A stretch of 64,000 nt of DNA from contig CM041199.1 of NCBI GenBank assembly GCA_023078555.1, positions 7,383,315-7,447,314 of the forward strand, read 5' to 3'. Both the position numbers and the translations under genes were made by a program. The stretch comes from Ulva prolifera. Its lineage: Eukaryota > Chlorophyta > Ulvophyceae > Ulvales > Ulvaceae. The notes below the pieces were generated by a model. That model did not search any database. It saw only the letters and a program-made list of their open reading frames with translations, and was not told where the DNA came from. Numbering within the stretch: position 1 is the first letter of the stretch; each line of letters begins with the position of its first letter. Below are positions 6,146 to 62,505 of the stretch, in pieces.

Positions 6146-6723
6146 CGTTACAGGCTGATCAGTCTAAACGCAAAGTCAGGCGAAGCTCCCGTCGGTCAAA
6201 CAGCGGAACGCAATGCGAGTGGAAAATATTGCCTGGCGCATTCGCGTGCGAGGCCTTGAACTCCATGATGCAATATCTCAGCGTATGTCTGGCATGGCTG
6301 CGGCAATTCTTGGTGCCGCAGCCAGCTCACGCTGTTTCGTTCCGTTTGCCGTCACGCCTGTAGACACCGTGGCGCGGTAGCACTCTTGCTCTATGTAGTT
6401 GGTAGCAACTGCGGCGACCAATGCCATGTTGTTAAGATGATCTGTTCACACTTATGGTGCATCATGTGTGTGCAAAGCGAGACGTCCGTAGCTGTGCACC
6501 AACGGCCGCTTTGAAGAGGACAAGACAGATTTTGCAACCTAGACAAGGCAGGCGCGCCAATTGTTGAACAATATACCAACAATAGCAGCGCAATGAGTGG
6601 GTACGATGTCTGATTTCAAATGAAGTTTTGACCGCCAGGGACAAGCGCGCCGAACAGCTCCAGCAGCCCAGTTCAGCCAAACAGCTTGCGTCTTTCGGTC
6701 TGGAACGAAACCGCTGATCGTCG
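6146..6723. promoter_or_regulatory. Divergent promoter interval (nothing specific seen)
   Basis: About 580 bases separate the minus-strand succinyl-CoA ligase start from the plus-strand WW-protein start, so both promoters should lie here. I see no clear TATA box or repeated motif. Confidence 0.4.
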
Positions 6724-9700
6724 ATGTTCAATGCTCCCATTTATGTTGCTATGTGCAGATCGGCAGGTGCGATGCCACCTCCACCATCAGTTGGCCAAAG
6801 TCAGCCAATTCAGCAGTCACAACCACAACCTGGCCAGCCATCGCAAGCCAGCAGACCGGACGCTACGGCACATGCCGGGCCACCTTGTCCACCTTCTTCA
6901 CAAGGACCGCCAAAGCCACCAGGTCCACCACCACGCCCCCCAGGCGCTCCGCCAGGCCCACCAAGACCAGCACCTCCCCCTCGTGCTCCCCCAGGGCCTC
7001 CCGCAACACAAGCAAACCCAGGCCCTGCACCACCACGGCCACCCGGTCCACCCGGTCGTCTAGCTCCTCCGGGTCCTCCCCCCCGACCTGCAGCACCACC
7101 GCGACCACACGCGCCGCCCCCACATCCGTCCAACGGACACTTCCAACCGCCTCAACCCACACACCCACGCCCCCCAGGGCACCCCCCTCATCAGACCGCA
7201 ATACCAGCACAGCCCCACGCACAAGATTCCGCGCAGCCACACCCGCCAGCGCACGCACCTGCCGCGCCGCCCCAGCAGCCCGCCCCAGCATTCCACCCGC
7301 CTCCAGGCGGAGCCGCACCGCCGCAGCAGCAGCAGCAACAACAGCCTGCTGCTGCGCCGCGTCAACCCCAGCAGCCGCCCCGGCCTGTGCGTCCAGCATA
7401 CGCAGTCCTCAGCGCGGCCCCGGAGCTGCGCGCCCCCGCGCCGCAGCCCACGACCGCAGCAGACCAACCCGCCGATGACGGCGACGCCCCCCCCGGCCTC
7501 GAGCTCCCGCCCGCCACCTCCGCGGCGGCCCCCGCCGACCCTCCCAAGAAACAGCTCCCGAAGGCCCTGCTCGCACGCCTCAAGCAGCGAGGAGTAGTTG
7601 CGGATGATGACAGCCGGCCCGGAGACGCAGCCGCGGCCGCACCGGCCGCAGCCTCCGCCGCGCCCTCCGCAAACGGTGCGCGCCTTCCGGCGCCAGGCAC
7701 TGCAACGACCATCGACGCGTTCGGCGAACTCCCCGCCGGCTGGAAGATGTCCGTCGACCCCCGGTACAACCACCCGTACTGGTTCAACGCGGCGACGGGG
7801 GAGCGGCGGTGGTCCCGGCCAGCAGACCCCACGCCCGCCGCGGCGGCCGCGGGGGCGCTGCCGGAGGGCTGGCAGGCGGCCATGGACCCCGCGACAGGGG
7901 TCACGTACTACTTCAATCGGGCTCTCAACACGCAGCAGTGGGAGCGGCCGGCGGGGCCGCCGGCCGCCGCGGGCAACGCTGCGGCGGCTGCTGCGCCGGA
8001 ATTCGAGGCGTGCGCGCAGTTTGAGGGCGCGCGGAGAGGCTGCGTGTTCAAGCTCGGCGCGAAGGGGCTGGGGTACTACAGGTGCGGAGTCCTGTGCCAC
8101 TTCGTAGGGTGCAGTGGTGTGGGAGGCTGAGGTGTGGCTGCGCATGAGCACACACGGCTCTCCTGGTGTACCCTGCCCTGCTGCCACTTCGGGGGCCTGA
8201 GTAGAGGACTTGTCTTGGGTCGTTGGGCCTGACAACACAGAATGGATCCGTACGTTTGGGTCTAATGTCTGGATGATAGTCCTAGTAATGCTGCAAGGCG
8301 ACCCAGCACTGCTGAGGACCAACTCGACCAGAGGGTCTTTGCCTGGCTGTTGAGACACCGCTGTCATGTCGTGGGACACTAGGGCTCCGGGAAGCAGGAG
8401 TCCACGTGCCTTACAGGGGGGGGTCCCAGGAGCTCCGGAGGCCGGGTGTCTAACGACCCTAACACGGGAGTGACGGTGAGCCTCGTGTTCGGCCCCACCA
8501 CAGCGCCTTGTGGTCCCAGTGTCCAAGCTGGTCCAGCCTCGGTCGCCCGTCGCTGTGTTTGATTGTACCTCTGCGCGTGCAGCTTGCATGAATGTGCTTG
8601 TTGCGTAGCAACGCTGGTTGCGCAGCAACTCTTCCTGGGGCGGCGGCCCAGTCATGCCTGTGGCCCTGTGAAGGATTTATGCGTTGCGATCAGCGTTGCG
8701 GTCAGCGCTGCTGCAGGCACATCCCGCTCCTTCAAACGTGGCCATGTGTACATTGTCCGCAATGAAACTTGAGCTTCGTTGTGGTACCAGATTGACCACT
8801 CCATTGCCTGACGGACCTGCCAGTGATCGAGCAGTGGCCCTGAACAGCTCACGCACCTCTGGCTCGTGCAATCGCCGGCTGCGCAAGAGCGTGCGACTGT
8901 GTTCTTCGATCTCTGAGGCTCACAAGGGTCTCAATTACACTGTGATCAGCTGAGATTCCGATCTGACAGCCGCGAACAGCTATTGGGTCTGATATGATGC
9001 ACCTCCAGCCATGCAGAGACACACCTCCCGGAGCTCAGGCGGAGACTGCTGCGGCCCCCAAGGCGGCGGCGGCTGCGTCGCCGGACGCAAAGCGGCGGAG
9101 GCTCGCGGAGGACCTCGCGCACGTGCGCCGCAACGCGGCAATGCGGGGGGGCCGTGACGGCAGCCGCCGGCAGGCCCCTGCGATCGACCCGCTCGACCCG
9201 GCCGCGTACTCTGATGCCCCCCGGTGTGCCCCCACGCCACCGCACGTGCCCCTGTACATGCACAGGGTTGGGAGCCATGCGGGGTCTGCTGGCCCAGGCT
9301 GAGTCCATGTGCTGTGCATCAGTGTGCAAATGCGGAGGCTTTCATGCATGTAGGTGTTGCCGACTGAACCTGCGGGCTGTCCTGCCCCTGCGGCCATGGT
9401 CCCCCCTTGGCCTTGTAGAGGATCTTCTTCATGCACATGCATGCCCATCTCCAGCTTCCACATGTTGTTCGAGATTCATGCCCTGCCTCGCAGCGTGAAC
9501 ACCACGCACAAAATAGCCTTTCAGCGGACGCCTGCCTCGAGCGTTGCAGCTGCAGATGGACACTGATTCCTTGCTTGAGACCAACCCTCCCTTGCCAACG
9601 AAACAGTCAAAGCTGTATCATGCATGATTCACCACGAAGTCACCTTGTTGCAGCTGCTGGGAGTCTATGTTGAGGCTGCTCACTGCTGCTGGAGTGTGCC

Positions 9701-12673: not shown

Positions 12674-15288
12674 CTCGACACGGGACGATCAAGAAGCAGC
12701 GTCAAGCAGGTTTGTATAACGAAGATCTCTCATCTCGATAGACCTGATCTATACTCATGTGGCACGACATCTCACACCCAAGGCCGTTCAGTACAGCAGC
12801 CGGTGCAGCAGTCAGAACATCGGGCCATTTGCGTCACCCAGCGGGAGAAGAGGCTACGTTCTGGCGGTCATGGATCAATTTTATGTGACCAGAGCGTACT
12901 TCCAGTGACTAGCAGATTCACCCATTATCAGTCCATCCGCAACCATGCATTGACACCTCAGCCTTGGCCAAGCTTGGCGTCGCTAGATCCTGCCGCGGCG
13001 TGGGATGCTGGATGCGCATGATACAACCACACTGCGCTTGAACAGCCAGGAGCCCGTCGATGCACAACTAGCGGTTTGCGCCATGGCGACCATTCGCGTG
13101 CTGGCGCACGCGTGGCCGCGATGCAAGCGGAGTATCTGGATGCTAACAAAGTACGTGATCAATCATTGAGCATACGAGCACGGGCCACAGCACGGCACAA
13201 CACCAGGACGCAATATGTGGGTCGCAAACACGACTACCGAATGAAAAGGAGTTTTCTACATGGGTGCGGTACAAGTAGGCCTCAGCGAGCGCCGAGAGGC
13301 TCCATACACTTGCGACCAGCTGCCACCGTCGAACGTTTCCCTTTCCTCTGGCATGCACAAAACAGCCCTCGACAAATCTGGGATTCGGAACATGGCATTG
13401 TAATCAAACATATACGCTGCATTTCACTCGGAAAAACGGTTATGTCTTTGGATCTACGCTGGTTTTGCTGCTGACGTGAATGGTGCTGGTTTGCTGCCTG
13501 CCTCGGCCACGAGGCTACCAGTCGGCTTGTGTGTGCCCTTTCCAGGCACCTTGGGCCCTGTGCAGCCGTGTAGCGCATCCAGGCCCGCGCGGCAGTGCCA
13601 GTGCCTGTGCAAGTCATGTCACTTGTTCAGCGATTTTCAGCCACTCCCCACAAGCCAGACTGGCTTAAAGACGGGGCGCCTCCAATGTGCTTTACACACA
13701 CCAAAGAGCAGGATCTGTCCACCAGGGAAAGGTTGGGGCCTCACCATCCCAGCTTCCGTGTGACAAGGACAAAGGCAGCAAGGCGGGCAGCACCGCGAAA
13801 GGAGCAAGCAGACGAAGCAAACACCAAGACACCCACGCACATCTCACCCATCACCGGCGTAGCAAGCGACACAGATCCGCAGACCGCCAAGCACACACCC
13901 ACACACCAGCACACACCCACACAGACCCCACGGCCCACACACAACAACACAACCGCCAACACCACAACGCCTGCCGACGTACGACAGGGCCGCGCCCAAC
14001 ACACTGCTGCCTGAGGCTGCCCATCATGGCCGCCCGATTGCCGGGGGCCGCCCTAGCCCCAAACCGCACCCCCACCCCCCAAGCCACAGCACACCCACCA
14101 CGCCTGCCCGGAACACCGCCGCGCAGCCTCGCCGGCCCACGCCGCACCGCACCCAGGACAATGCATCGCCCAAGCCGTCTCCGCAATCCCTGCACATGCC
14201 AACGAAGGCACCCCGCACGCCCATCGGACCTGGCCCAGCTTCCGTGACACTGCCTTGCCCCACTTGCGCTGTATTCGTGGATTTCAGATGCGCTGCAGGA
14301 CGACCATTACAGGGCAGCCGGTGAAATAGGTCTGGCTGCAGCTATATACAGAACCCCCAGAGGCTATCAAGCCAGAGTGCAACCTCACAGTACTTTGGTT
14401 ACTCGAAAGCTGCGTAGCAGAGTTGCAGGAGTTGATTACAACTGTAACAGATACACTTTACGGATGATATCTCCATCAACTGTATGTGCGTGACTTTTCA
14501 TGTTCAAGGAGATGTAGCCCTGACCGCGAATCTGTGATGTTCCGTGAGAGAAATGTGTGAGGTGGACCGCCTTGCTTGTGACGAGGAGCCAGCTGGAGGA
14601 GCTAGCAGGGTGGCTTTACGGGGGCGTATGAAGAGCTTTGTGCCAATAACATTGAACCTTTTTTGAGGTGGACTTCTTTGACTTTCTCAGCACGGGCCGA
14701 AACAGTAGTGAAGCTTCGTTTTGCTTTGTGCGCTTGCCCCTGTCGTCACTCCGAAGTAGGGACGATCACGAGCGCGACTCCGTAGAGTTGTGATCGAGCC
14801 TGCATGCAGCCGGCTTTCTAAAAATCGAACACACAGGCACATTGACATGTAATCGTTCGTAAGGTCGAGGCCATTGTGTACTAAGCTCCTGCAAACGCTG
14901 TCCGCTGTCCAGGCCTTCGGGTCGGTAACCGCGATTTCAGGCACAGCCGTGAGGGCAGGCACCGCCAATGCGTGGAGGTACGCATTGCAGGTACTATGTG
15001 CTGCATGTCGCCATGGTAAGCTGATCAATGCTCCGCGGGGAGTGTGAAGTGCCGTTCCCAGGGTATGTACGTATTTGGTAGATGGACAGCGACAAGTGTC
15101 GGCCTAAATGCGTGATCCATTCTATCCACCCAGGCTTCTGTCAAGTTGCACATTTTCGCGCTCTGACATGTCGACCTAATGCAGAAGAGGATGTACGGTA
15201 CGGCTCGAGTAAACGGCAAGACAACGCCACTGAACCTTGCCAATCTGCCATACAGCGGCGGCCCGAATGTGGGCAATCGCCGCGATAA
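12674..15288. other. Intergenic with an A/C-rich strand-skewed block
   Basis: No gene recognised. At about 13850-14240 the plus strand is strikingly rich in C and A (ACACCCAC-like runs). This opens long low-complexity frames such as 13687-14247, which I treat as composition artefacts. The last part is the 5' flank of membrane-protein copy A. Its only upstream ATG candidates (15179 and 15191) are in a different frame from the conserved exon. Confidence 0.4.
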
Positions 15289-18200
15289 ACTCTACCAGTA
15301 TGGCTTTTGGCGCTGTCTACGCGTCTGTTCATCCTACCAGAGGCCTGGGATGGCTGGGCAACCATTCATGCCAAGCCTTACCAAGTTTTTCTCTACACCA
15401 TGCTTGCTAGCTTTGTCGCCATCGTAGTGAATTCCTGGTGCCTATCTGTAGCATCCGAACCTGTCTCAGTATTGCTCCTGATCCCCTGTATGGTGTACTG
15501 CATTTGCCACCTTGCCGTGCACCTTCTTGTTTCGGGATACGGCCCGGCCGTGAGCCAGAACACGCCATACACTGCCATGGGATGCCTGTCAGGTACTGCC
15601 CATGCTTTTGTCACCGTGAGGCTGCTGGCGTGGCCAGGTCAGCACATCCCTTTCGGGAGCCACCAGCGTTTCCTGGCCTGGCTTGCGGCAGGGATGTGGG
15701 CCGTCAGCGTTGCAGCTGTTCTAGGAATCTGGGGCATGGACCATCCTCCAAAGCCACATAGGTACGTCTCGGTTGTATTTGTTGAGACAGTGCTTGTCAC
15801 CACGACATCGGGCTGTTCTTGCATCGGGGCGATTGTCACCCTGTATTGCAGCATGCAGTCACGCGCCTGGTCATGAACTCTTTTGCGCACTGGAGCTTCT
15901 CCTTGAGTTGCCAGGCTATGTTGCGCATGCCCGTCTATTGCTTGTGAGTGCAGATCCTTTGCGGCACCGCTGCTGCGGGCGAGTATACGGGCCCTCAGAG
16001 TCATGGACTCTGTGACAGACATGCTGGTCATCAGAATGATGCTGGATATGGTGGGCTGCTAGCTGCACAAAGCTGCTGCGCATGTAGGCTAGCAGTTGAT
16101 GTCGGATCTGGGAAGAGTTTCTTGTCCCATTTTTGCGCGGCAGATCCAATCAAAGAGCATGTGCCAACCCCACATGAGAGAGTTTTGCTTGTGTGTTCGT
16201 TGTTATATCATACATCCTAGCTAATGGATGTTTTGGGGTAGCGTGGCTGAAACTCTGATCACGCTGATCGTGCGTGGCCGATTGTTTGCAGCGGTGACCC
16301 ATTGATGGCAGGTGTCCACTGGTGCATCATGCACGCTGCACCCCAATTCAGGTCTGCTTCTTTCCAAGCATTCTGCATAGGTGGGTGTCCAGATGTTCAG
16401 CAAACGCGTAGATCTCTTGTTGCGGTGTTGTGCCTCTCCTGTGGTTGGCACATTTGGCGGCGTTGTTTTCAAGAGGGCCACTGCGGTACGGCTGTCTCGA
16501 TGCGGAGTTTATGCTGAGGACACTGCTGCAGGCCCAGGAGCCATGCTACTGGTTTGGCGCACAGAGGGCTTGTTCCCGATGGCTCATCTTGGCCGCGTGT
16601 GCTGGCGGCGTCGCTGCTTTGGACCTGGCCATCAGCATGTTCCTTGCGTCGGCAGGATTCGCATTCTCAAGCAGTGAGTTGAGTGATCGGAAACGGCGGT
16701 GAGCTCTGCTGCTTCTCAAGGTCATGCTGTGCTGTGAGCAGACTTGCAGCCCTTCTGGGGATGCATCAAAGGCAGCCAACTGGGGTTGGCCCAACCTGCG
16801 CGCGCACGACAAGGCAGATTGCATTGTCTGATGGCATGGAAACACCTGCAAGTTCAAGGCGACGCAGCCCTAGTGCCAGTGGCAATGCTTTACAAGGACA
16901 AATCCAGAGAGGCGGGTAGCACCGCCCAACAGTGGCGATGTGTGACCACGCATGTTCTGAAAGCACCCACTCGTACAGGCCTACAGTGCAGCGCAGACCA
17001 ACCCGATTCTGAGCAGGTGTGTGGCTTGCTGCTGATGATGCTGGCCTGCTGCAGGATGTGGATTCGCGCCCATGTGGCGATGTTCTCGTGCGAGGCCGCC
17101 ATCCTCGCGGTCCCCCTCGGGAAGCTCGTCAGCGGCTTCCAGGAGCCCGCCGCCGCAACGTCCACCGCAGACAGCAGGCTGCAGACCGCAGATGCGCAGC
17201 TGCCCCAGCTTCAGGACGCCCCAGCTTCAGGACGCAGGTGCGCCCCGCCCCAGCTTCAGGACGCCCCAGGACGCCCCAGCTTCAGGACGCCCCAGCTTCA
17301 GACCGCAGGTGCGCCCCGCCCCAGCTTCAGGGCGGTCCCGGCGCAAATGTCAGCATGCTGGGGCGCTGTATGCCTGCCTGCCTGCGCAGCATCGTCCACA
17401 AGCCCGCGCGGCGCTATGCATGCTGCCCAAAGGCAGGCCGGGGCATGCAGTCACCTCCGCACACCATATGATAGTGCATCTGGCAACTGCAATTCCCCGC
17501 TGGAATCCACACAATCCACGTGACAGTCACAGAGTATACTCACCGCCCTCTCATGCATACATATGTTCAGGAGAGCCTTGTGTGGTACAGTAAAGTAGAT
17601 CTGAATGTACTGAGCCGTATCCAATTGGACATTGACAACTCCGAGCGACCGCAGGACTGCATATGCCATGTAGTTTCTCATGTGCAGTGCATTTGCCCGT
17701 ACTGAGCGTGTACGGAAATGGTGAATGAGAAGTCTAGTATAGATGCTTGCCTCCTACGCTGGTATCTACGATCGTGCCCGTCCTCTGTCCTTTAAAAGCC
17801 ACATACACTGGAGCCTTCTGGTCACATGAGGCCCTCAGCGTGTGGGGTGTCTGCCTGGTCTCCGGTTCCCTGCGGCCTGTGCCAAGCTGCGGCACTGGTA
17901 CAGCCGCCATGGCCGCAGTTGAGCTCTCTGGGTGGGTGGGCTCGAGGTAAGATTTTCCTTGCAAAGTTCATCACTTGTCTGCAATATGTGAGCTTCACGA
18001 CGACGGCAGGAGTGCCTCTCTGTGCACACGCGACACACTGTGTCTGAGACATGCATGCTGCGCATGCACTTGTCTATTCTGTTGGTGATCTTGTACACAC
18101 AGGCGCCGTTTGTGGCCAGGCAGCCTGGTCCTGCAAACGCTGCGACCCACGATCGCAGCTCTTGTTCTGTCCTGGGCCGCAGCTTGCCCTGGTCCTGTCC

Positions 18201-18615
18201 TGCCATGCAGCGGCACTAGGATCATGATGATGGCCCGCTGGGTGCTGCGGCTATTGCCTCTTATGCATGAATAGGTCTAACTCGTCATCTCGCTGTATGG
18301 ATGCTGCAGCTAGGGCGATGACTGCATCTGCAGAGTGTGCCCAGCAAGTGTATGACTGTGCGCACTGGCCATACCGTCGACAGGCCCGGCCTGTGATTAA
18401 CCCTACTTCTCGACTGCAGGAACTCCGTGACGCTCACGCTGGCATCGTTCGCGGTCACGGTCGCTTCATTCTGCCTGACCATGCTCGGCATGAAGAGGGT
18501 CCTCGGGGCGGTGAACCGCGTCGGCGTGGAGCTGCGGCAACGCCTCTCCAGGGGCTCGGTGCACAGCGACAGGCCCCGCCCCGCAGGCACATGCATGGAG
18601 TCCTGCAGCCTGTAG
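15289..18615 (+). CDS. Multi-span membrane protein, tandem copy A
   Basis: First of four tandem copies of a membrane protein I do not recognise. Exons: 15289-15761, 15954-16050, 16532-16698, 17055-17237 and 18420-18615; the phases match those of copies B and D. Exon 1 encodes LSTRLFILPEAWDGWATIHA then four hydrophobic segments. Exon 2 ends TDMLVIRMMLDM. Exon 3 has QEPCYWFGAQRACSRW and a helix. Exon 4 has HVAMFSCEAAILAVPLGKLV. Exon 5 has LTLASFAVTVASFCLTMLGM then a basic tail. The N-terminus is disturbed: the conserved frame meets a TAA at 15286 with no ATG before the first helix, while the nearby ATG at 15179 reads in another frame. Either a frameshift or an unseen upstream exon is present. 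A minisatellite expands the end of exon 4. Transport or channel function cannot be assigned. Confidence 0.7.
17190..17340 (+). repeat. 17-base minisatellite spanning exon 4 donor of copy A
   Basis: Tandem, partly scrambled copies of a ~17-base unit (CAGCTTCAGGACGCCCC) occupy the end of exon 4 and the start of the intron. Among them the donor-like string GCAG|GTGCGCCCC occurs twice, with breaks at 17237 and 17308. Only the first keeps phase 2 into exon 5. Copies B and D have no array here and an exon 60 bases shorter. Confidence 0.8.
17588..17667 (+). repeat. Dispersed ~80-base repeat, copy 1
   Basis: Shares a diverged but colinear ~80-base sequence with 48647-48729, including CAGTAAAGTA, TCTGAAT, ACTGAGC, TTGGACATTGACAACT and GCATATGC-like ends. 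Copy 1 lies in intron 4 of membrane-protein copy A. There is no coding potential and no clear terminal inverted repeats, so the class is unknown. Confidence 0.7.
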
Positions 18616-19886
18616 AGGTGGCCTCTGAGCCCGGCACGCACCAACAATGGACGCCGCCATCGTACCGCTGCAGGTCACGCACACGATGACCAGACCTGGA
18701 CTTGCTGAGCCCCGGGCCTGTGAGTGCGGTTGTGCACCCCTGTTGGGTGCAGCAGTAGGGCCGCATAACGCTCGTGGGTACTGTCCATGTGATGGTGTGG
18801 GGCAAGCTGGAGCATGGGTGGTCGTCTGGAGCATGTGGCGGCGGGCACTCAGTGGCCTGGGTTCTGGGACACACACGCCATGGCTTGCAGGCGTGTGCGG
18901 ATGCGTTCATGGTGAAGCCAGGGGTACGACCAGCTGCCAGCAGGATCGACCTCAGGGAGCTGTCTGGATTGATGCCTGTGTTGGCCTGTGCAGCGGGCAG
19001 GACTTTGCACGACGTAGATCAGGCGCCAAAGCGTGCATCGGTGGCGGGCTCCCGGAGCAGTAGGCAGTCAGCTGAATTGGATGGTATACTGGAGAACATG
19101 ACAGCATGATGCTGCAGGCCACGGATGCCCCAGGAAGGACATAGCTAGCTTGTGGCAAGCATGGACGCAGGCACATCGACGCGTCATTGACCCGCAGGTG
19201 CTCGAGCTTCAGGGGCTGGCCTTGTCTGAAGCTAGCCTGTGCCAGACCAGCAGGAACTCTGCTTCTATACTTGCAATGGAACCATACAACACTGGCCACA
19301 TATGGAGAGAACGAGAGATTAACATGTGTGTGCTTTGCGTTCAATTTGGTACCGAGCAGTGTCGTGTTGCCTTGCAGCGTTCCGGCGGCTGCCACCAGCA
19401 GTTGGTGCTAGGTGAATGGAAGCGTTCTATTTGAATGGGCAGGAGGGCCCACCTCTGATACTGAGAGGCCAAGCAGACCAGGGGCATGTCCTGGCAGATC
19501 GCTCTGAAGTGATTGTGACCGCAAAAACACCACCAGTAATAGAGCTACAGAATGATTCTTGGGCATGTACGCAGAGACTGGAATGAGCACCACGATGGCA
19601 TGGTATGTGCCCGACATCATGCGATGCATGTGGTTGTATCACGTTTTTGCTACATTAGCGGTAATAGCAGGCATGTTGTGAGCTCCTGTGGTATAGACCC
19701 TTCAGAGGCCCACCGGTTGCCAGCCTGTGTAATGGGCAGCAGGCGCCGGCCAGTGAGTTCTGCAGATCATACAGTAATCAACACTATCCCATTACTGGGG
19801 AGATAACTTCTGCTGTGACCCTCTGGTGCTGCGTAACAGCATGATTAAGACACAGCCAGGCAGACACCAGGCCTGCAACCATCAAA
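18616..19886. other. Intergenic between copies A and B
   Basis: No exon-like frame with family similarity. Holds the 3' flank of copy A; nothing else recognised. Confidence 0.4.
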
Positions 19887-20662
19887 ATGCATAGCCTGCA
19901 GCATGATCACAAGGAAGCCAGTGCATGCCCACGTGCACGATGCAGAGTCTAACGCCATGTTTTTCGCACTTACTTCTGCAAAATTACAAACAGCAGACAT
20001 CATCATTGACTGTTGTTTGGAACGTGGCTCCTCGCATCTATTGCTCGCTCCCCCTCATGTACGCATGCAGAGCAATGGCACACTATGCAACTTGTTATCA
20101 ATGCGTGATACCTTGCACCCCCGGCAGGTGATCTATTTACAAAACGCCCCACCATGTCTCGAGATATTCGACACCTGTCATCACGCCCGTGTGGCGCGCC
20201 GGTTCGCTGTTGAACCTGAATGTAGCAGTGTCGTTGATCCACATCATGCGCAATTACAAGGATTATTTATTAGGTTTGGGCTTGAGGTCAATGGCCTTTG
20301 GTGTGTCGTTGCTTTAAAGACACGCACCGTTGCGACTTGGCTCCCAGCGGTCGATGCACGGTGCTAAGCCGTGAAATCACGATTTCACTGTTCTCAGGTA
20401 GCTCTTCCTCTGTATTTCTGCGCTCTTACCATGTCTTATTCCATGAAGGACGAAACTCGCCGTCCTGGTGTCCAGTCTCGTATATGAGTAGTGACGACGC
20501 TTGCGCTGATCTTCGAGAAAGGCCGGTCAGTTACCACCCTCATCCAATCAGCACGGATGCCACCGATAGGCTTATGTTATTGACTGTGTTATTATCTTCT
20601 GATTGCACAATACTGTGTACAGCACAACTCAACGCCTCAAATAGCATACCAGAGCACACGAG
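19887..20662 (+). repeat. 5' flank of copy B, duplicated upstream of copy C
   Basis: Colinear, diverged similarity to 24943-25686 at an offset of about 5.0 kb. Shared anchors are ATGCATAGCCTGCA (19887 and 24944), GGAAGCCAGTGCATG, CAGGTGATCTA and a TATGAATAGCGACG-like string (20483 and 25516). The duplication unit therefore carried its promoter region along with the gene. Confidence 0.75.
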
Positions 20663-23600
20663 ATGTCCAACCAGCCGGAAAGCGGCAACGTACCTCGTGA
20701 AGACCCAGATTCATGTTCGTACGAGCTGCCTGAGTGGGTGCGGGTGCTGTCTGCGCGCCTGTTCATTCTTCCACAGGCATGGGATGGCTGGGCAGCGATT
20801 CATGAGGAGCCGTTCAAAGGCTTCCTCTACTGTGTGTCAGCGAGCTTATTTGCAATCATATTCAACACTTCAGGTCTGCTTGTCGCCAACGCAGGAAGTG
20901 GAGGTCTTCTTCTGCTTTCCTGCACGGCATATTGCACTTGCCACCTCTGCATGCACCTTCTTGTTTATAGATATGGCCCAATCGTCAGCCGTAGCAAGAT
21001 ATACAATTCCGCCTTCTTCGTGACAGTCTGTGCATATACGCTTGCATCGATATTGTTGCTGGCATGGTCAGGCGATCACGCCCCCTTGGGAAATCAGTTG
21101 GGGTTGATCGGATTTCTTGCTGTGGGCATTTGGATGCTCATCGTCCCAGTTGTACTTGGAATGTCGGCGACGCAACACCCTCTGCAGCCATACAGGTGAA
21201 GTTTCCCACAGTGTCGATCGACGATGCTGATTCCGATATTTAGAATCCTACGCAAGAATGCAACATGCCCCTACTGTGTGATTTGCTTAAGAAGCATGCA
21301 GTGTATGGGGCTACTGTGTAGTTACATCTCAATGGTACATGTAGGAAACATCTGTCAAGTGTGCTGAGTATCGGCTGATCCAGTGCAGGTCCATCACCGT
21401 CCCACTCATTGGCGCCACTGTCCGGACTCTGCGAATCCTAGACGGTTTGACAGACTTGCTAGTCATCAGAATGATGCTGGAGAAGGTGGGCTGCTCATGC
21501 TCACCAGTGCTGGGTCTTGATGGCCAATGAAATGCGCTGAATGTCTCGGTCTCGTTTCTGGATGGCAGCCCTGAAAAAGCTGCCAGGCGACCCAACACTA
21601 CTTCGCACAAGCACCCAAACAAAGATGCTAATCCACAAACTTGTGTTCCCCCTGGCTGCTGATCCCACTGCTGCATGCTTGCGTGCTCGCATTGGTACGT
21701 ACGTACTGCGCCACTTGTATGCCCTTGGGCCAGTGGGCTCCAAAGCTTACCTTTGCGAGGGTTTCTTATGAACTAGGTTGCTGCTCACAATGAAATAGAA
21801 TCAATCAATTCAATGTTCTGCGAAGCTGCTGCAGGCCCAGGAGCCGTGCTATTGGTTTGGGGCTGAGCGGGGCTGCGACCGCTGGATCATCCTGGCCGTC
21901 TGTGCCGGAGTCGTTGCAGCTGTGGACCTCGCCATTGGCATTTACCTTGCTTTTGCAGGGCCGTCTATCCAGGCCGTCGATAAAGGTGCTGAAAAAAGAC
22001 GGTGCGCTTCTTCGCTTGGCTGTCAGACTGCGGTTTCCCTCATTGTTGCCTCGCCATGCAGCAGCAGTGCTAGAGCGCAGGTAGCTTCACCCAGGCTGCA
22101 ATGTCCAGGGCCATACACACCGTGCATCACACAGTCAAGCCTATATGTGTTTGATATTTGCCGGGTCAATGCTGAGGTGTGGCCAGATCTGCTCTGCTTC
22201 GTGCGACATGCAGACGGTCACTCACACTGACTTGCAGTGACCATTGGCAGTTGATACGCCACTGCCAGTTCCATCGTGCGGCGTGCCGTAGGCACGAGGC
22301 CTCAGAATCCAGTGACAGGACTCTCAAAATGCTTGATGTGACTGTCTGAACAGCGCAGTGTGGGATCGGAGAGAGTCCACCATGTGTGCCAGGGAACCGC
22401 GCTGAAGTTCCGCGGCAACACAATAGCTAGATCAAGACTCGGCTTGCTGCACAATTGCTCAGTGTGCTGTGTCCTTCGATGCAGTTGGCTACTCTGCAGG
22501 TGCCACGCTTGTACTGCTGCCTGTGGCACCAGAAGAGTGGCAATCATATACGGATGGCAACCGTGCACGAGGCGGCCCACATCACAGCACCTGTACCTCC
22601 TGTCTTTTAATTGTTGCTGCTGACGATGGTGGGGCCAGGCCGTATGCACAGTTACGAGTGCCTGCTCCAGGTCGCAGCCCTATCCACACTCCAGCAGTGT
22701 GACATGAAGTAGCCCCACGCCATCATCCCAGGTGGCTGCGTACGCTGTTGTAGCTCTGCCTGTGCTGCAGGCTGCTCACTCATGCCCACTTGGCATCGTT
22801 CTCGTGCGAGGTCGCGATCCTCTCGGTCACCCTCGTGAAGCTCTTCTGCGACTTCCAGGAGCCCGCCGCCGCCACCTCGCCCACCGAGCGCCGGTGCGCC
22901 CCTGCGCCACACTCCCACTCTGCGCTGCTGGTGTGCACATGGGGCGCCCTGATGAGGTCTGTGTTGGTCCACAGTCCTTTCAGGCATGGAGGTGCACGTC
23001 CGAGCTGGGTCGCATGTGTCACGCCCATTGATTTTGCCAGCACAGGCGTGGCGTATCGTTCCACTGGAGTTCTGAGGTGCACCTATTCACCCTTCGCCGC
23101 GAATTCTTCCGCTTGTGTTGTGAGGTGCATCTGTGCACTCTTCTGCGGAGCCTGTGGTGCTCCTGTATGTCATGAACCAAATCTGGCTGCGTCTCGGCAA
23201 GCGGCATGCATGCATGAATATGCCACCTGGCAGTTTGCGGCCGGATCCAGGCCGTTGTGCTGTCCAGGTCACAATATGTCAGCCTGCACTGACACCCTCC
23301 GCAGCTCATCTTTCTGTGGCACTGGGCCTAATCCCTCAGGCTTGTGCGGAGGCAGCCATCAGCATAGCTTCCCGGCCTCCTCCGCTGCTGTCCGGCATTG
23401 CTCTGCATGATCCCCTGGACTGCGGTTGTGGGTTGTCAAACCCGATCACTTGGAATGGCGTCGAGGTCTCGGGTCTCCAATCCTCGATGGCAGCCGTAGA
23501 GCCCTGCTTTAAGGCGATCCGACATTGGTGCTGCTGTAGTGGCTCAGGCCGCGGTGGCAGCCTGCATCGGCAGGCTGCACCCGTTCCGTCGTAGGAAGGT

Positions 23601-23886
23601 GGCAGACGTCTGGATGGTAGTCTTGGCCAAGCACGTGCCGGTATGTGTGACATGATACCTGCTGTGCAGGAACGCCGTGTCGCTGACCCTGGGGTCGTTT
23701 GCCGTCACGATCGCCTCGTTCTGCCTGACAATGCTCGGCATGAAGCGGGTCCTCGGGACGGTGAACCGCGTCGGCGTGGAGCTGCGACAGCGCATGTCTC
23801 GGGCGTCAGTCCACAGCAGCCACAGCACAGATGTCGGACGCCTGCGGCCGGTAGATGCATCCGCGGTCGCCGATATGGAGAAGTGA
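20663..23886 (+). CDS. Multi-span membrane protein, tandem copy B (intact model)
   Basis: Best-preserved copy. Exons 20663-21195, 21389-21485, 21835-22001, 22771-22893 and 23670-23886 join in frame to 378 aa, starting at a clean ATG. After a polar ~40-residue head and LSARLFILPQAWDGWAAIH come hydrophobic segments at about residues 53-75, 80-105, 117-138 and 145-168. Exon 2 adds an amphipathic linker ending LLVIRMMLEK. Segment 5 follows QEPCYWFGAERGCDRW, segment 6 is SFSCEVAILSVTLVKLF, and segment 7 is SLTLGSFAVTIASFCLTMLG before a basic, Ser/Arg-rich tail. That makes about seven membrane segments. There is no signature of a known GPCR, rhodopsin or transporter; the protein is unrecognised. 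Donors use the GTGCG type in introns 3 and 4. Four tandem homologues show this is a real, expanding lineage-specific family. Confidence 0.82.
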
Positions 23887-24942
23887 GCAGCATCACTCTG
23901 TTGGCACGTCCGCTGTGAACTGTCACATCTCGATCTGCGCTTGGCATTGTGTGCGGGCGGTGCATCGACAGATTCCAAAGGGTGGCACGGGCAGGTGTGC
24001 CGGGGTTGGGCGACTCAGCAGGCTGTCAAGAGTCTCAAGACTGTGTGATCACGCAGGGGAGCGCTGTGCGCTTGCTTTTCTGAAAAGATCAATATTTGGC
24101 TGCAATGCTGCTGAGCACATGCCTGGATATAGCAGCTGCAGATGTATGTGGACGTGCTTCCACACATGCTACAGTTTCACCATGATTGCGACCCTGCCTC
24201 AGCCGACGCTATAACCGGACGCGCCGCTCCACCTTCCACGGGCTGACTGGTGCAGCTGCAAGCTCTGCTGGACTGGTGGCTTGTTGCCGCTGCGGCCTGC
24301 AGTGGTGCAATGACAAGAGCGCATCAGGAATATCGACACCAGGCCTCATCTCGGATCTATGCGGAGGGCAGGTGAATGCTGGTCAAACACACAATGGGGC
24401 AGCAGCGCCGGTGTGAACCGGGCTCAAATATGAGCACCCAGCCATGAGCTTCGTCTGCCGCCGAGTCTACATAGAGCTATGTCGCCTTGCCTTGGATCGA
24501 CGACCTGGAGATGCTGACGCATAACCAGCTACTTAGGGCAGACACACTCGTTCGATTGGTCATACAGGACTGAAAAGAACTAGCAGAATTGCGGGGACAT
24601 CCTGGAGGGCCACCATGAGTGCTCTGAGATGTGGTGCATGATACACTGCAGATGCTCTATATGACTATATGCTTTGCAAATCAAAAGAACTATGTGACAA
24701 GATATTGGGCGCATTTGAGGTCGTCCGCCGTTCGTTCGGGAAGCATCTGCGAGGTTGCAAGCTCAAGTTGTTGCACTACAACAGCGCAGCCAGTCAAGGT
24801 GCTGTGTCCATGTAGCTTATATAGCTGTCGTCGCTTCACTTCACAGGCTAGAGCTGGCAGGGTCTACTCGAATGGACATGGCGATCCATAACTGTACTCT
24901 ATACGAACTGCCACTGCTCGTCAGCCTGTCATGATCACAAAC
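23887..24942. other. Intergenic between copies B and C
   Basis: Short frames only; nothing recognised. Confidence 0.4.
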
Positions 24943-25686
24943 AATGCATAGCCTGCAACACGAGGAAGCCAGTGCATGGCCACTGGCAAGATAAAGAGTC
25001 CACTGCCACAGTATTTCCGGCTCCTGCTGCAAAATCATAGATAGCAGACAATATCATAGACAACTGGTAACTTACCAGTGGTAAGGTAACTGGTAGCAGC
25101 ATGGCAGTCTGTTGCTCCCCCTCTTGTACTTATGCAGACCCAAAACATATCAAACGTGATTGGAACGCTTTCTCGCGAGAGCACCCTTTCAGGTGATCTA
25201 CTAACAAGGCATCCCACCCGCTACCCAGCGACACCTGGCATCACGCGAGGGTGACGGCCAAGTTCTTTCTTAGACCTGAGTGTAGCGACGCAATTTCGTT
25301 GTGAGGCGTTGTGAGGCGTTCAAAGTTCATCTGTCGGGTAACGAGGGCATGACGTCAACGGCGTTTGTGTGACATCGCTCTCATGTCGATAGGTTTGATG
25401 GTGCAGGCAAGCTTCCACTGTTCGCGTCAAGCTCTTCGCTTCCAAATGCTACGATCTGAGTGACGATGTTTCCCTTAGCGTCGGTTAATCACTGTCCGAG
25501 TGACCAGGTTCGCATATGAATAGCGACGCTGCTTGGCCCGGTGTGCAAGGTGGGTGAATGAGTTACCAGCATCAACAACCCAGCGCAGATACAGCTGAGA
25601 TATGTATCGTGTCAGTGTATCCAAATTGCAGAAGATGATGTGCGCCGTCGCAATGCAACGACTGAAACAGCATACAAGAGCGCGCG

Positions 25687-26465
25687 AGGTGTCCAAACGG
25701 CTCGACAGTGGCAACGTACAAGTATTAATCCAGGTTCTTGCACACGCGAGCTGCCTGAGTGGACGCGGATGCTGTCTGCACGCCTGTTCATTCTTCAACA
25801 GGCATGGGACGACTGGGCAGCAATCCATGAGGACCCATTTAAGGCCTTCCTCTTCTGCATATTAGCAAGCTCTATTGCAATTATGCTCAACAGGTCGGGT
25901 TTGCTTGTAGCCAGCGCATCGAAGGGAGGTCTCGTTCTCATCCCCAGCACGGCTTATTGTGTTTGCCATCTTTCCTCGCATCTTCTCGTTTGGAGATATG
26001 GCCTGATGAGCACTCTACAATGATGAAAGCAGGTTGCGTTGTGTCCCTGTGCGGTGCCTGCGGTCCACTGGCTTGTGAGCCTTGTCCTCGGACTCTCATC
26101 ATCCATGGGTGCGGCAATGCCGACAATGCCGACTGAGCGGTCTCAGAGGCCGCTCCCGTGCGTCCGTCCACCATGCTGCCTGTTGCCTGGCAACACTCCA
26201 GCCTGTGTCGGCGCGGCCGGCCCTGGAAGTCATCCCTGGGGCATGAGTCAGCCCCCCCCCCGCCCCGTTGTGCAGGAACGCCGTGACGCTGACCCTGGGC
26301 TCGTTTGCCGTCACGACCGCCTCGTTCTGCCTGACGATGCTCGGCATGAAGCGGGTCCTCGGGGCGGTGAACCGCGTCGGCGTGGAGCTGCGGCACCGGA
26401 TTTCGAGGGCGTCAGCCCACAGCGGCCACCCGGTCGCGGACACCGCCGGCGGGTGCGGCCTGTAG
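25687..26465 (+). pseudogene. Multi-span membrane protein, tandem copy C (broken chimera)
   Basis: Exon 1 sequence resembling copy B begins near 25687, where the ATG of B is GTG. One base is missing relative to B before the ELPEW motif, shifting the frame. The conserved stretch ELPEWTRMLSARLFILQQAW through HLLVWRYG is then readable to about 26000, where similarity to B ends abruptly and a stop follows. Exons 2, 3 and 4 are absent. Exon 5 reappears at 26276-26465 (NAVTLTLGSFAVTTASFCLT...RHRISRAS) behind a C-rich acceptor. In both exon 5 and the C-rich intron end it is closest to copy D. I read it as a deletion chimera with a B-like 5' half and a D-like 3' end, and non-functional. A short transcript is possible but no full product. 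Confidence 0.82.
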
Positions 26466-28320
26466 AGGCAGGCGCAGTCGGAGTACGTGGTCAGCACAAC
26501 ATGAAGGGCAAGCTGTCGGAAGGTCCACTGTTCCGTCAACTAGGTCAACTACTCAGCGTCATAATGGGCTGGCGGAGCCGTACTGGGGAGGCTGTGGCTG
26601 GTCTGGACCCATGGACGGCAAAGATCAGGGCGTCAGGTCTGGTGCATCTGCGTGCGGATCAGCTGCGGCAACGGTCACACCACCCAGACGCGGTCTGGCA
26701 GCTTGCGAAGCTTCCGGCCTTGGAGCATTTGCATACGTGGGCGGGGCTAAGCTAGCGTGTATGTTCTGGGAGACGTTAGGCTGAGGCGACCGCGGTCGAC
26801 CAGGCTGTAGTGTCATCATGCTCCCTGGACTCGGGAGACTTTCCCCAGGGTCCATGCTGACTGTGCACCTGCATCGTCGCGCCCAACTGTCACAGATTCG
26901 GCCAGGGCGCTGTTCTCTTGGCGGTGGCACGGCTGCACCGGTGGGTGCATGCAGTGGCAGGGGACGCCTCCTGTGCAGCGTGAAGATGATGCGGTACACC
27001 TGAAATGCTTGCACAAAATCAGGGCAGCTGCTGACAGGATGTGTGCAGCGAACGGTCATACATGTGGGCCTCTGGCTGACCCGGTCGGGCGGAGAGAGAT
27101 GGCAGGAAGCAGGACAGCTTGAATGCGGCTGTAAACCATGGGCAGGCCTGTGCGGAAGCACTGGGCACATCACAGCTGCCTTGTCTGAAGGACGGCCGCT
27201 CATGACCTGCAAGTGGTGGCCACCACGTATGCATGAGCTGCAGCAGCTACCTGCGGCGGCATGGCTAACAATGCTGACTTTCTCCATTGGCCACTGTTAT
27301 AATACATGATGACAGGCTAGGTGAGACAGGATTCAAGGTGTCAACATGAGAAGGTATACGGATGCACAATGTGCTGAGGACAATTGGTACCTGTGTTGGG
27401 AACCGGGGATGTTTTGCTTGAACGTTAGTGGGATGGCCGCTGTGGCGGCGTAGTGCGATCATGGCAGCTGGAGGCGGTGCATTTGCACATGCGCTTGCCT
27501 GGCTGTGGATCGCAAAGCTGAAGCTTGAGGAGGGAGTGGAGACAAAAAGACGAAGCACTACACATCCTCCTGTACACCAGTTTCAGATGGCTGTTCCAGG
27601 TGACTTCAGCATATGCCGCCAGCTGAGGGGTCAGCTGAGACAGGTGTGGGTGTAGGTGTCCAGGCAAGATACTAGAATTCTTCGCTTTAAAGCGACAAAT
27701 TGTTCGCTAGAGGATTAACTGGAAGAAAAACATGAGAACACACATCATCAATCGGCGCTGAAACTGGATCTTGAGTCCTAGGAATGCGGTTTATCAAGTG
27801 ATTGATAGCAGGTAGCATCTTCAGGCACCCACTGCTGTCAAACTGTGTGTTCCGCACTGCTTTGGCTGTCAACCACCGGTATCTCAGCTGCGACAGCTTT
27901 GGCCCTGTGTTACGCCACACCCAAAGCACGTCGGTCCCGCAAGAAGCACTACGTTTACGTAGCGTGGTCGCATCTGGAGCAACGTGGCACACATCGCTTA
28001 TTGGCTTTCATCATCGCTTCGGGTGCGTCGTGCACACATAGTCTATGGCAGGCATCCCTGCACAAACAGCTGGTCAAGTCTCAGACATAGACAATTGCTT
28101 CAACCTGTATTGACGCTTTTCCACGTACTAGTCTGACCGATAGTGGACGTGTTCCTCGCTCGTAGGAGGCAGTCCGGCGGATGGACTCCGCCAGCGCTTT
28201 GCCAGGTGTGTAACGCTCAACGCGCATGTGCCAAAACGCGAGAGCATGATCATGTTGCAGCTGTGCGCTGTGTGATGCGGCTTTCGTGCAGAAATTGGCT
28301 CAAAGTCTCCGGCCGCTACA
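26466..28320. other. Intergenic between copies C and D
   Basis: Several 60-220 codon frames on both strands overlap one another without family similarity. Holds the promoter flank of copy D; nothing else recognised. Confidence 0.4.
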
Positions 28321-30644
28321 ATGCAGAGAAATGATCGCAACAATGATCCTGAACTTGCCAGGCAACCTTCACACGAACATAAGTCAGGCTCAAGTAGTGT
28401 TCCGGGCTGGGTTTTGGATTTGTCTGCGCGTTGTTTCGTTCTTCCAGAGGCTTGGGATGGCTGGGCCGTGATCCATGAAAAACCGTGCCACATTTTTGCT
28501 TACGCGATGTGTGCTGGGTTCTTCGCAATGATTTGGAACTCATGGGCTCTGGTTGCAGCCAGCCTGCCTGTGGGCTGGGTGGCCTTGGTTCCATGCATAA
28601 TTTATTCCAGTTGCCATCTGACCTCTCATCTGCTTGTCTGGAGACATGGCCCAATGATCAGCAAGGCGACAGTCTATCGTGTTCTAGTCTCCCTGTCTTC
28701 TGCTCCGCATACATTCCTTTGCTTGTGCCTGGTGTTCTGGCCAGGTCAGCATGTGCCCTTTGGAAGCCATATCTTGTTCACTGCTGTCCTCTGTGTGGGC
28801 ATGTGGCCAATGTACGTTGCAGCTATTCTTGGATGCTGGGCAGAGGATCATCCTTCACAGCCACACAGGTGCATTACATGCTCTATCTTGCCTGTCACTT
28901 CCCTGAGACACGTGTCCAAGCACCCACAATCTGCTTCACCCAGACGAGTGACAGATGCACTGCTCAACAGTAGGAGTACAATCGATGTAGCCGCATCCTG
29001 TGGCTAGATCATGGTCTGCATGTCTAAGTGACCAGACGCTGGCCCGTGACACCTGTCTGTATGCACGTCTAAGCTTCCAAAAGATGATGGGGCATCACAT
29101 GGATCCCCCTGCTGCAGTGCTGACTTGCAGGTCTTGCAAAGGACCAGTGCTGACTGCCACAACCCGCCTCCTCCGGGTGACTGATGCCTTCACAGACATG
29201 TTGGTCATCAAGATGATGCTACAAAAGGTGTGCGGGGTCCTCTATCCTGGCAAAAGTCAGGCTCTTCATCCGGTAGTGAGATGCCGCAGGCGTACGGCCT
29301 GCCTCGTCACCAGCTATTCGTCACTTGGTCCTTGCAGCTAGGTCTTGCTCATCAAAACTCGTCGTGTGCATCTGGGTCGTACGGAATGCCACGCTGCAGA
29401 AGGCTCCCCCAATCCGCTCACACTCAGCTGAAGTCTGGCTAGGAACAAACCGGCAAGGAACACTTTGCACACGGCACAAAGTCGATGCTTCCAATAAACT
29501 TGGGCACACTGACCCAATAGACTTGACCCGGACTGAACGAAATGAACCGCTGCAGGCACAGGAGCCGTGCTACTGGTTTGGAACCGTGCGGGGCGGCGGG
29601 GCGTGCGCGCGGTGGCGCGTCATGGCCGCTTGTGCGGGTCTCTCCGCAGCTGTCGACCTCGCCCTCAGCATCCACCTCGCCACGGCCGGCTTCTCTGCCC
29701 AGAGCAGTGATCACGACGTCGACGCGCGGAAGCGGCGGTGCGCTACATCATCTGTGCGCCTCGTGAGCTGCATGCGCGTTGGCCTCTTTGCAGTAGCGGC
29801 AGTGCATGTATGGGCAGGCGTGGAAGTGCTGTTTTGGGGTGCGTAGAATGTTTACTACCAGTTCGATAGGCCTGTTCAGTCTGGCGTGTGCCCACACACC
29901 CCCTGGAAGGTGGTCTGAACGCAGCGAGCTACGCACCTCGCAATGCTGCTTTCACTCCAGTGTTTCACAAGTTCCCAGGATCCGCTCATCTTGTGGGTGT
30001 ATCCCAGCCACCTCAAAGGAGTGTCTCCTAGCGTTCTTTCAGGTGTCTCCTAGCTGTTTGCGCGCTCCCAAACAGGCCGAGCTCCCAGACGTGCACCATC
30101 ATGTGTGCCTGTGTGTGCCGAGATGAGGTAGCGCAGTAGTTCCGCGCCTGGGCTGCAGTGCCACATGCGCCCTCACGCAAGCTTCTGGCCGTGGCTGCAG
30201 GATGTACGTGCGCGCACATGTGGCGTCCTTCTCGTGCGAGATCTCCATCCTCGCAATCACTCTCGTGAAGCTCTTCAGCGACTTCCAGGACCCCTCCGCC
30301 ACGACCTCCCCTGCCGAGCACCTGTGTGCCCCACCCCTGCCCTCCGTGTCCACCTGTGCGCCGGCACCAGGGCTGCTGACGCTCATTCAGCTGGCCCATG
30401 CGAGCCCCCCCCGCCCCTGGTGTGCAGGAACGCCGTGACGCTGACCCTGGGCTCGTTTGCCGTCACGATCGCCTCGTTCTGCCTGACAATGCTCGGCATG
30501 AAGCGGGTCCTCGGGGCGGTGAACCGCGTCGGCGCGGAGCTGCGGGTGCGGATTTCGAGGGCGTCAGGCCACAACAGCCACCATCCAGCTGCTGGGCGCT
30601 TGCAGCCGATTGAGATGGTTGGTTGGGCCGACGCGCAGGCATGA
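28321..30644 (+). CDS. Multi-span membrane protein, tandem copy D (intact model)
   Basis: Exons 28321-28868, 29131-29227, 29556-29737, 30201-30323 and 30428-30644 join in frame to 388 aa from an ATG at 28321. Order and phases equal those of copy B, and exons 2, 4 and 5 have identical lengths (97, 123 and 217 bases). Exon 1 has LSARCFVLPEAWDGWAVIHE and four hydrophobic segments. Exon 2 has AFTDMLVIKMMLQK. Exon 3 has QEPCYWFGTVRGGGACARW and a helix, with 15 extra bases. Exon 4 has SFSCEISILAITLVKLF. Exon 5 has LTLGSFAVTIASFCLTMLGM, KRVLGAVNRVG and a variable tail. About seven membrane segments are predicted by eye. Exons 3-5 are far more GC-rich than exons 1-2, a contrast seen in the other copies too. 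Function unknown. Confidence 0.82.
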
Positions 30645-58685: not shown

Positions 58686-58691
58686 CCTCAC

Positions 58692-59565
58692 TTGTGTCTC
58701 ATTGCAAATGTTTCCATCAATTGATGGGTCGAAGTATTCTCAATAGTACAGCCGCTGGTGTTCCTTCAACTTGCATGCATCGCTCCGTCACCGTTCATCA
58801 TGAGGCATCATTGATGGTTGCCGCAGTCAAGAGCAGCGGTGCACACAGCCAGCTCACCATAGCGGCGACACTGCTATGGCAGGCTTGATCTGGCCAGGTG
58901 CATCTCAGGATCAGGATAACTGCGACCACAGACTGACAATGTCAGCGATGCGATGCCAGGCGGCTACCGAGTTCTCACCAGTTCATTGGACATGCTCGGA
59001 GCGAGGTTATGGTCTGCACAATTGTGGAAAACACACCAGACATGGCGGACAGCTGAATACTATGCAGCATATTGCACCGGGCGCATGCTGTACACGCCTT
59101 GGTAATGATGCGGGTCAGAACAAGAATACTAAGCAGATGTGCTAGTGGAAAGAAAGTGTGCGATGGAGTCAACTGAGGATCATGATCATGGTGCACGATC
59201 TAAAGAATTTGTTTATCTAAGCTAGACTACTGGTAGGGGGGCTGCATGTCACGAGAGCGTTCGCAAATCACCTGGGCCATCTACCATTGCGTCGTCTGGC
59301 CTTAAGCTTGAGGGTTGTACATCGACTTCACTATGACGTTCGGCGTCAGACCCTGAAGATGGATCGTTGGCCTGCGTGGTCTCGGCGTTGGCCGCTCCAC
59401 TCTCCAAGTGTGAGTCGGAGCGATCAACGTGCAGGGGCAAAATATCATTCCCATCGCTCCCGTGTTGCAACGGCTACACATGTTGCGCTCTGTTAGCCAC
59501 ATCAGTCTCGCAACTTGTTGTGAACACATATGTTTGCAACAGAAACAAGCTACATAGAATGCGCA
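58692..59565. other. Spacer between the two NLR genes
   Basis: About 870 bases with only short frames. It should hold the promoter of NLR 1 and the 3' end of NLR 2. Confidence 0.45.
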
Positions 59566-62298: not shown

Positions 62299-62505
62299 AC
62301 TGTGCAACAAGACCTGCAGCTTGCAGCCCCTCAGAACAGGAAGGATACAGCGGTAGGTTACCATGGTCAGCACATGTGCATAGAGTGTGTGCACACCTAC
62401 GTAAGCTTGTGTCACTGGACTCCTCCTCTGATGCTTGAAAACGATAAAAAAATTCAGCGCCGCTAGTCTTGTCAAGTCCAGGGAGCTGGGGCTAGTGAGC
62501 AGCAC

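Follow-up and report, generated by a model that had tools for sequence, protein, structure and literature searches.

The subject of this report is a tandem array of membrane-protein genes in the green alga Ulva prolifera, contained in a 64-kb stretch of contig C4 that we call the window, in a genome of 88.9 Mb and 44 contigs. Four copies of one gene, here named A to D, lie head to tail on the same strand between window positions 15,289 and 30,644. When exon 1 of copy B was searched against the genome, the other three copies were recovered with E values of 6.8e-39, 9.3e-37 and 1.5e-35; with E values of 1.5e-35 or less for all three, chance repeats are ruled out as the origin of the array. A repeat search recognised the exons as separate repeat families (D1, D2 and D4) at spacings of 2.6 to 7.7 kb. 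The original prediction, made from the letters of the window, had proposed four similar units in one orientation, and the repeat families and exon-1 E values bear this out.

Copies B (20,663-23,886) and D (28,321-30,644) yield intact models of five exons, encoding proteins of 378 and 388 amino acids (aa), and the intron borders in the gene models are of the GT-AG type. The intron phases, computed from exon lengths, are identical in A, B and D (2, 0, 2, 2), exon 2 measures 97 nucleotides (nt) in the same three copies, and B and D each have an exon 4 of 123 nt and an exon 5 of 217 nt, all in agreement with what had first been noted. A common five-exon layout had been claimed for all four copies, but only A, B and D have it. 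Copy A (15,289-18,615) keeps the layout, but a TAA codon (15286-15288) stands right before its exon 1, which holds no in-frame ATG, and no start was located. Its exon 4 is modelled with a GT donor at 183 nt; automatic splicing chose a GC donor, giving 123 nt. A 16-nt minisatellite, GCCCCAGCTTCAGGAC, lies there, occupying window positions 17202-17301 within and beyond this exon. Copy C is a remnant, in which the 5' part of exon 1, with similarity that stops after the second transmembrane segment (TM2), is followed by the last exon; TM3 to TM6 are absent, and a GTG that does not share the reading frame of the conserved part takes the place of the ATG start of B. Elsewhere in the window, a search with a profile of the family found no further exon chains and a single isolated match of 34 residues near position 36,545. 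Upstream of B and C lies a non-exonic direct repeat of 103 nt (73%; window 19908-20010 and 24959-25061), possibly a remnant of the duplicated unit or a common control region.

Table 1. The stretch analysed and the exons of the four gene copies (window positions unless a contig is named).
Feature	Position	Strand	Details
Stretch studied	C4:7,383,315-7,447,314		64-kb window in 88.9-Mb, 44-contig genome
Copy A exon 1	15289..15761	+	TM1-TM4; stop-bounded, without in-frame ATG
Copy A exon 2	15954..16050	+	97 nt; charged TD helix
Copy A exon 3	16532..16698	+	167 nt; QEPCYWFG loop and TM5
Copy A exon 4	17055..17237	+	183 nt; GT donor; minisatellite-expanded end
Copy A exon 5	18420..18615	+	TM7, basic tail, stop
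Copy B exon 1	20663..21195	+	533 nt; ATG start; TM1-TM4
Copy B exon 2	21389..21485	+	97 nt
Copy B exon 3	21835..22001	+	167 nt
Copy B exon 4	22771..22893	+	123 nt; TM6
Copy B exon 5	23670..23886	+	217 nt; TM7, tail, stop; protein 378 aa
Copy C remnant, exon 1 5' part	25736..26017	+	to TM2
Copy C remnant, last exon	26276..26465	+	TM7, tail, stop
Copy D exon 1	28321..28868	+	548 nt; ATG start
Copy D exon 2	29131..29227	+	97 nt
Copy D exon 3	29556..29737	+	182 nt
Copy D exon 4	30201..30323	+	123 nt
Copy D exon 5	30428..30644	+	217 nt; protein 388 aa

The genome has many other tandem groups of this family, which is far larger than is visible locally. Three exon-1 queries matched 25, 58 and 42 places. 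Merging took in 25 of 25, 57 of 58 and 14 of 42 of these rows (the other 28 of the 42 fell within loci already listed, and one weak place of the 58-place search, at E 0.005, was omitted) and gave at least 54 loci, broken genes included, in 26 groups on C1, C2, C3, C4, C5, C7 and C8. Forty of the 54 loci sit in groups of two or more, and a query made of exons 4 and 5 found 51 places. At C5:7548122-7568297, family places with identical scores recur at steps of about 9.8 kb (7548, 7558 and 7567 kb; 7554 and 7564 kb); either a two-gene unit has recently been duplicated in tandem, or the repeat comes from the assembly.

Two layouts occur among the loci fetched: the five-exon layout in the window clade and its relatives on C1, C2, C4 and C7, and a layout of about three exons, with exons 1 and 2 and exons 4 and 5 fused, in the C3 and C5 groups and at one C4 locus. 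In both, introns flank the exon of TM5 on either side. Exon 2 is 97 nt long in six of eight modelled members of the five-exon type outside the window, the other two reading through that or a neighbouring intron; since the splicing score at these loci came from a profile built on the window copies, which leans towards similar exon borders, the lengths are support rather than independent proof. A tree was made from the 28 near-full rows among the fetched loci (at least 270 of 340 columns filled, shorter rows excluded), the set used below also for topology, conservation and the TM7 motif. A, B and D group together in a clade of their own (100/99), as do five rows from C3:4.11-4.13 Mb (100/99), four from C5:7.53-7.55 Mb (100/100), two from C2:8.28-8.29 Mb (100/100) and two from C5:8.55-8.57 Mb (100/99); the rows at C4:3.24 Mb and the pair at C3:3.92 Mb form no exclusive clades, and two rows sit on long branches and are unsure in their placement. 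The picture is one of birth and death via local duplication.

Selection on the genes of the array is purifying. The whole-gene ratio of nonsynonymous to synonymous divergence (dN/dS) is 0.35 for A and B (351 codons), 0.44 for B and D (378 codons) and 0.32 for A and D (351 codons), and the per-exon ratios span 0.12 to 0.76. A locally expanded, spliced family under constraint, as originally proposed, is what the array, its conserved exon borders and the dN/dS values bear out. By the method of Nei and Gojobori, dS comes to 1.11-1.44 for exon 1, 0.84-2.76 for exon 2 and 1.14-1.58 for exon 3, values near saturation, and to 0.34-0.56 and 0.33-0.77 for exons 4 and 5. The GC content of third codon positions (GC3) rises from 0.51-0.60 in exon 1 to 0.82-0.93 in exons 4 and 5. 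Introns 3 and 4 of A and B are alike, with identities over the shorter intron of 0.60 and 0.50 (0.05 and 0.03 when shuffled); their introns 1 and 2 are not (0.03 and 0.13; shuffled 0.04 and 0.07), and intron 2 of B and D is partly alike (0.39; shuffled 0.09). Because dS is low and GC3 high at the 3' end, and because A and B have introns 3 and 4 in common, we read this end as having perhaps undergone later exchange or gene conversion, possibly GC-biased; codon bias is an alternative explanation.

The proteins share a set of motifs: A..GWA.IH..P before TM1, a charged helix R..D..TD....R (the TD helix), a loop with PC.WFG....C, and a conserved last transmembrane segment. The four signature strings reported earlier are also found in the copies. 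Over 353 pairs, identity between clusters is highest in the motif before TM1 (0.44), the TD helix (0.41), TM7 (0.41) and the PC.WFG..C loop (0.37), followed by loop 4 (0.35), loop 7 (0.32), TM6 (0.30), TM3-4 and TM5 (0.26 each), the tail (0.25), TM1-2 (0.21) and loop 6 (0.17). W30, P37, P93, P163 and S303 are kept in all 28 rows. In the TD helix, R180, D183 and T186 are each present in 26 rows, D187 in 27, and an R or K at 192 in 28; the two loop cysteines, C202 and C211, are kept in 25 and 27.

Seven segments are clearly hydrophobic, with a median best 19-residue hydropathy (KD19) of 1.66-2.12. Of the earlier estimate of about seven such segments, the seven strong ones stand, and the TD helix, which exon 2 encodes, may be an eighth span; its median KD19 is 1.00, and it reaches 1.6 in none of the 28 rows. 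With helix borders set by hand, the density of K and R favours seven spans with the N-terminus outside and the C-terminus inside (N-out/C-in) in 23 of 28 rows, eight spans N-in/C-in in 19, and seven spans N-in/C-out in 5, counts that are not independent of one another because the rows are mutually related. The C-terminal tail is basic (2.93 K+R vs 0.43 D+E per row), as is loop 6 (2.89 vs 0.89), and judging from this composition we take the tail to be cytosolic, as it would be in both of the better topology models. AlphaFold2 prediction of the contiguous exon 1, from four window rows, gave four long and two short helices at low confidence (pLDDT 56, pTM 0.34).

Searches against known families gave nothing that we consider more than chance, and the earlier statement that these proteins could not be matched holds for the Pfam, NCBIfam, PHROGs and PDB families searched. 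At E values up to 10, B matches no Pfam family and D has one chance match (E 3). The 15 rows of our profile alignment A1, drawn from 14 members of which one contributes two pieces, have matches to 14 families of Pfam and 4 of NCBIfam, never in more than one row per family and with a best E value of 0.0062, which we judge to be chance. Five first and three last exons of further loci gave nothing near the cut-off, and no enzyme or soluble domain was recognised with Pfam or NCBIfam. In the PDB, B has only one chance match (E 1.1). Seven coronavirus protease sequences came up in the PDB profile search (E 0.024-0.26) and were dismissed as chance, being soluble enzymes with a best single-stretch i-Evalue of 1.9 among the alignments listed. 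Origin from a mobile element or virus was likewise rejected: two short peptide patterns each found no relative in prokaryote and viral contigs, the DNA of exon 1 of B found none in plasmids, and four rows of a second alignment, A2, had no match in PHROGs. Word searches of an open-access library on algal 7-TM, 8-TM and expanded families brought up no paper with a description of this family, which does not prove absence; it is possible that the family is undescribed.

Recognised domains occur elsewhere in the window. Two open reading frames of 952 and 988 aa on the minus strand (window 55881-58739 and 59566-62532) encode NB-ARC domains (E 7.9e-20 and 7.5e-17) and leucine-rich repeats (LRR). Across the genome there are 33 NB-ARC places, 28 with E values of 3e-15 or less; of the 33, 11 fall at C4:7.32-7.53 Mb, inside the window and on its flanks, with other clusters at C6:2.31-2.61 Mb and C1:4.68-4.88 Mb. 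In the same genome, the chlorophyll a/b-binding protein models matched 38 places, which marks a photosynthetic eukaryote and agrees with the earlier chlorophyte label. The repertoire of nucleotide-binding LRR (NLR) genes looks large for an alga, since few chlorophytes are named as having NBS-LRR genes in passages of PMC8891106. A link between the membrane family and the NB-ARC/LRR genes was considered and rejected: of the 26 groups of the family, one is located 120 kb or less from an NB-ARC place, with 0.72 expected and a probability of 0.52 for one or more. Towards the start of the window, WD40 repeats (three matched stretches) lie in a 126-nt tandem repeat at 2-403 on the plus strand, and at 6718-8130, also on the plus strand, an open reading frame encodes two stretches of WW domain (E 8.5e-21).

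What might such a family do? Tentatively, and from sequence features, we read the protein as a putative receptor- or ligand-gated channel-like protein of the cell membrane. One may further speculate, as a possibility that we would not call likely, that the genome holds an undescribed algal family of at least about 50 chemoreceptor- or channel-like proteins, with birth and death in the style of animal chemoreceptors and an independent origin. Copies of the gene are born by tandem duplication, may be homogenised at their 3' end, and decay, as C has done and perhaps A too. In the receptor- or channel-like reading, the diverse body of TM1-TM4 (21-26% identity between clusters) could provide varied specificity, and the conserved core (37-44%), to which GWA.IH..P, the R..D..TD....R helix, the loop with two cysteines and the final transmembrane segment belong, could serve coupling, gating or assembly.

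Several points weigh against the receptor- or channel-like reading. Where the protein sits, what it binds and how it acts we infer from sequence; tandem expansion fits transporters, lipid-handling proteins or stress proteins equally well, and the topology counts single out no one model. The C-terminal tail varies between clusters almost as much (25% identity) as TM1-TM4. Inside the array, the lower dS and higher GC3 confound the conservation of the 3' exons, and in single exons (exon 4 in the pairs A-B and A-D, exon 5 in B-D) dN/dS rises to 0.65-0.76. Overall, the family is real, under constraint and spread through the genome, with a local array that is partly decayed; until a fold or a function is established it is ordinary in kind.

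The main rival is a lipid scramblase- or transporter-like protein, followed by a protein related in kind to G protein-coupled receptors (GPCRs) and then by a relative of the insect odorant and gustatory receptors (OR/GR). We consider a scramblase or transporter a real possibility, if an unlikely one. Here the TD helix would be a true span, giving eight spans with both ends inside, and its buried charges would line a path for polar molecules or lipid headgroups, as in XK-related (XKR) scramblases. In 19 of 28 rows the eight-span N-in/C-in model does better than its reverse; it leaves the two-cysteine loop outside and puts loops 2 and 6 and the C-terminal tail inside. The TD helix also ranks with the best conserved segments of the protein. 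Its hydropathy, however, is low for a span, and charge contrast is better with seven spans N-out/C-in. TM1 of two solved XK-related proteins, 8 and 4, has the D..TD spacing as well (D..AD in the 7p14 row), but the motif lies in helix 1 there and in helix 5 here. An XK-related origin, which this spacing had prompted us to consider, was rejected: none of the 15 A1 rows matches an XK-related Pfam family at E 10, and comparison of A1 with the XK-related N-terminal half (three solved pieces) by hhalign gives a probability of 0.1%. A genome search with PF09815 had no match, but its controls were likewise silent.

A GPCR-like protein of seven spans, with the N-terminus outside, a cytosolic tail, and a long second extracellular loop made up of the charged helix and the two-cysteine segment, seems to us rather improbable. 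Its topology has the best K+R contrast, and a basic stretch follows the last span as it should; yet no family of 7-TM receptors, be it GPCR, MLO or another, is among the 14 Pfam families matched by the A1 rows at E values up to 10. Few classical GPCRs are known from green algae. We think it more doubtful still that the family belongs, as a divergent branch, to the insect OR/GR-like superfamily of 7-TM ion channels, which includes GRL and DUF3537 proteins. The lengths of 378-388 aa and the seven strong hydrophobic segments fit the criteria found in passages of PMC7746228, which also report single DUF3537 proteins in green algae, and large tandem families with a conserved last span would be in keeping with this origin. 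The N-in/C-out orientation is nevertheless favoured, by prediction, in just 5 of 28 rows, and the TM7 motif (T/S)Yhhhhh(Q/K/E)(F/L/M), which those passages treat as diagnostic but not definitive and as largely unrecognisable in DUF3537, occurs in none of the 28 rows in strict or relaxed form. Comparison with two Orco sequences by hhalign gave a probability of 0.1%, from a shallow template and without a positive control; searches of the genome with the 7tm_7 and DUF3537 models gave no match, but neither did their controls. Finally, it is very improbable that the array is largely what a past expansion left behind, decaying and without function. C is clearly a remnant, A has no located start, and 5 of the 58 places of one exon-1 search carry stops within the matched stretch, but the other 53 are free of them, the reading frames of B (378 codons) and D (388 codons) run uninterrupted and keep conserved borders, and whole-gene dN/dS is below 0.5.

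Large, fast-turnover membrane families often mark contact with the outside, be it food, mates, symbionts or pathogens, and green algae are not noted for receptor repertoires of this kind. If the receptor- or channel-like reading is true, the size of the family would open algal sensing and surface interaction to direct tests; if the proteins are transporters instead, they still add a family that is missing from Pfam. Of the known systems, plant MLO proteins and classical GPCRs resemble this family in that seven spans N-out/C-in are admissible for it, and differ in that none of the 15 A1 rows matches their Pfam families at E 10. Insect OR/GR, GRL and DUF3537 proteins, as characterised in passages of PMC7746228, are like it in length, in seven hydrophobic segments, in large family size and in a conserved last span, and unlike it in the TM7 motif; the charge distribution, as a prediction, speaks against an N-in/C-out orientation, and the shallow two-sequence Orco profile showed no similarity. 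From the XKR scramblases (PF09815) it is set apart by the PC.WFG loop and GWA.IH..P, both absent from the XKR rows compared; with them it shares a multi-pass architecture, D..TD in a membrane helix and, possibly, eight spans with both ends inside.

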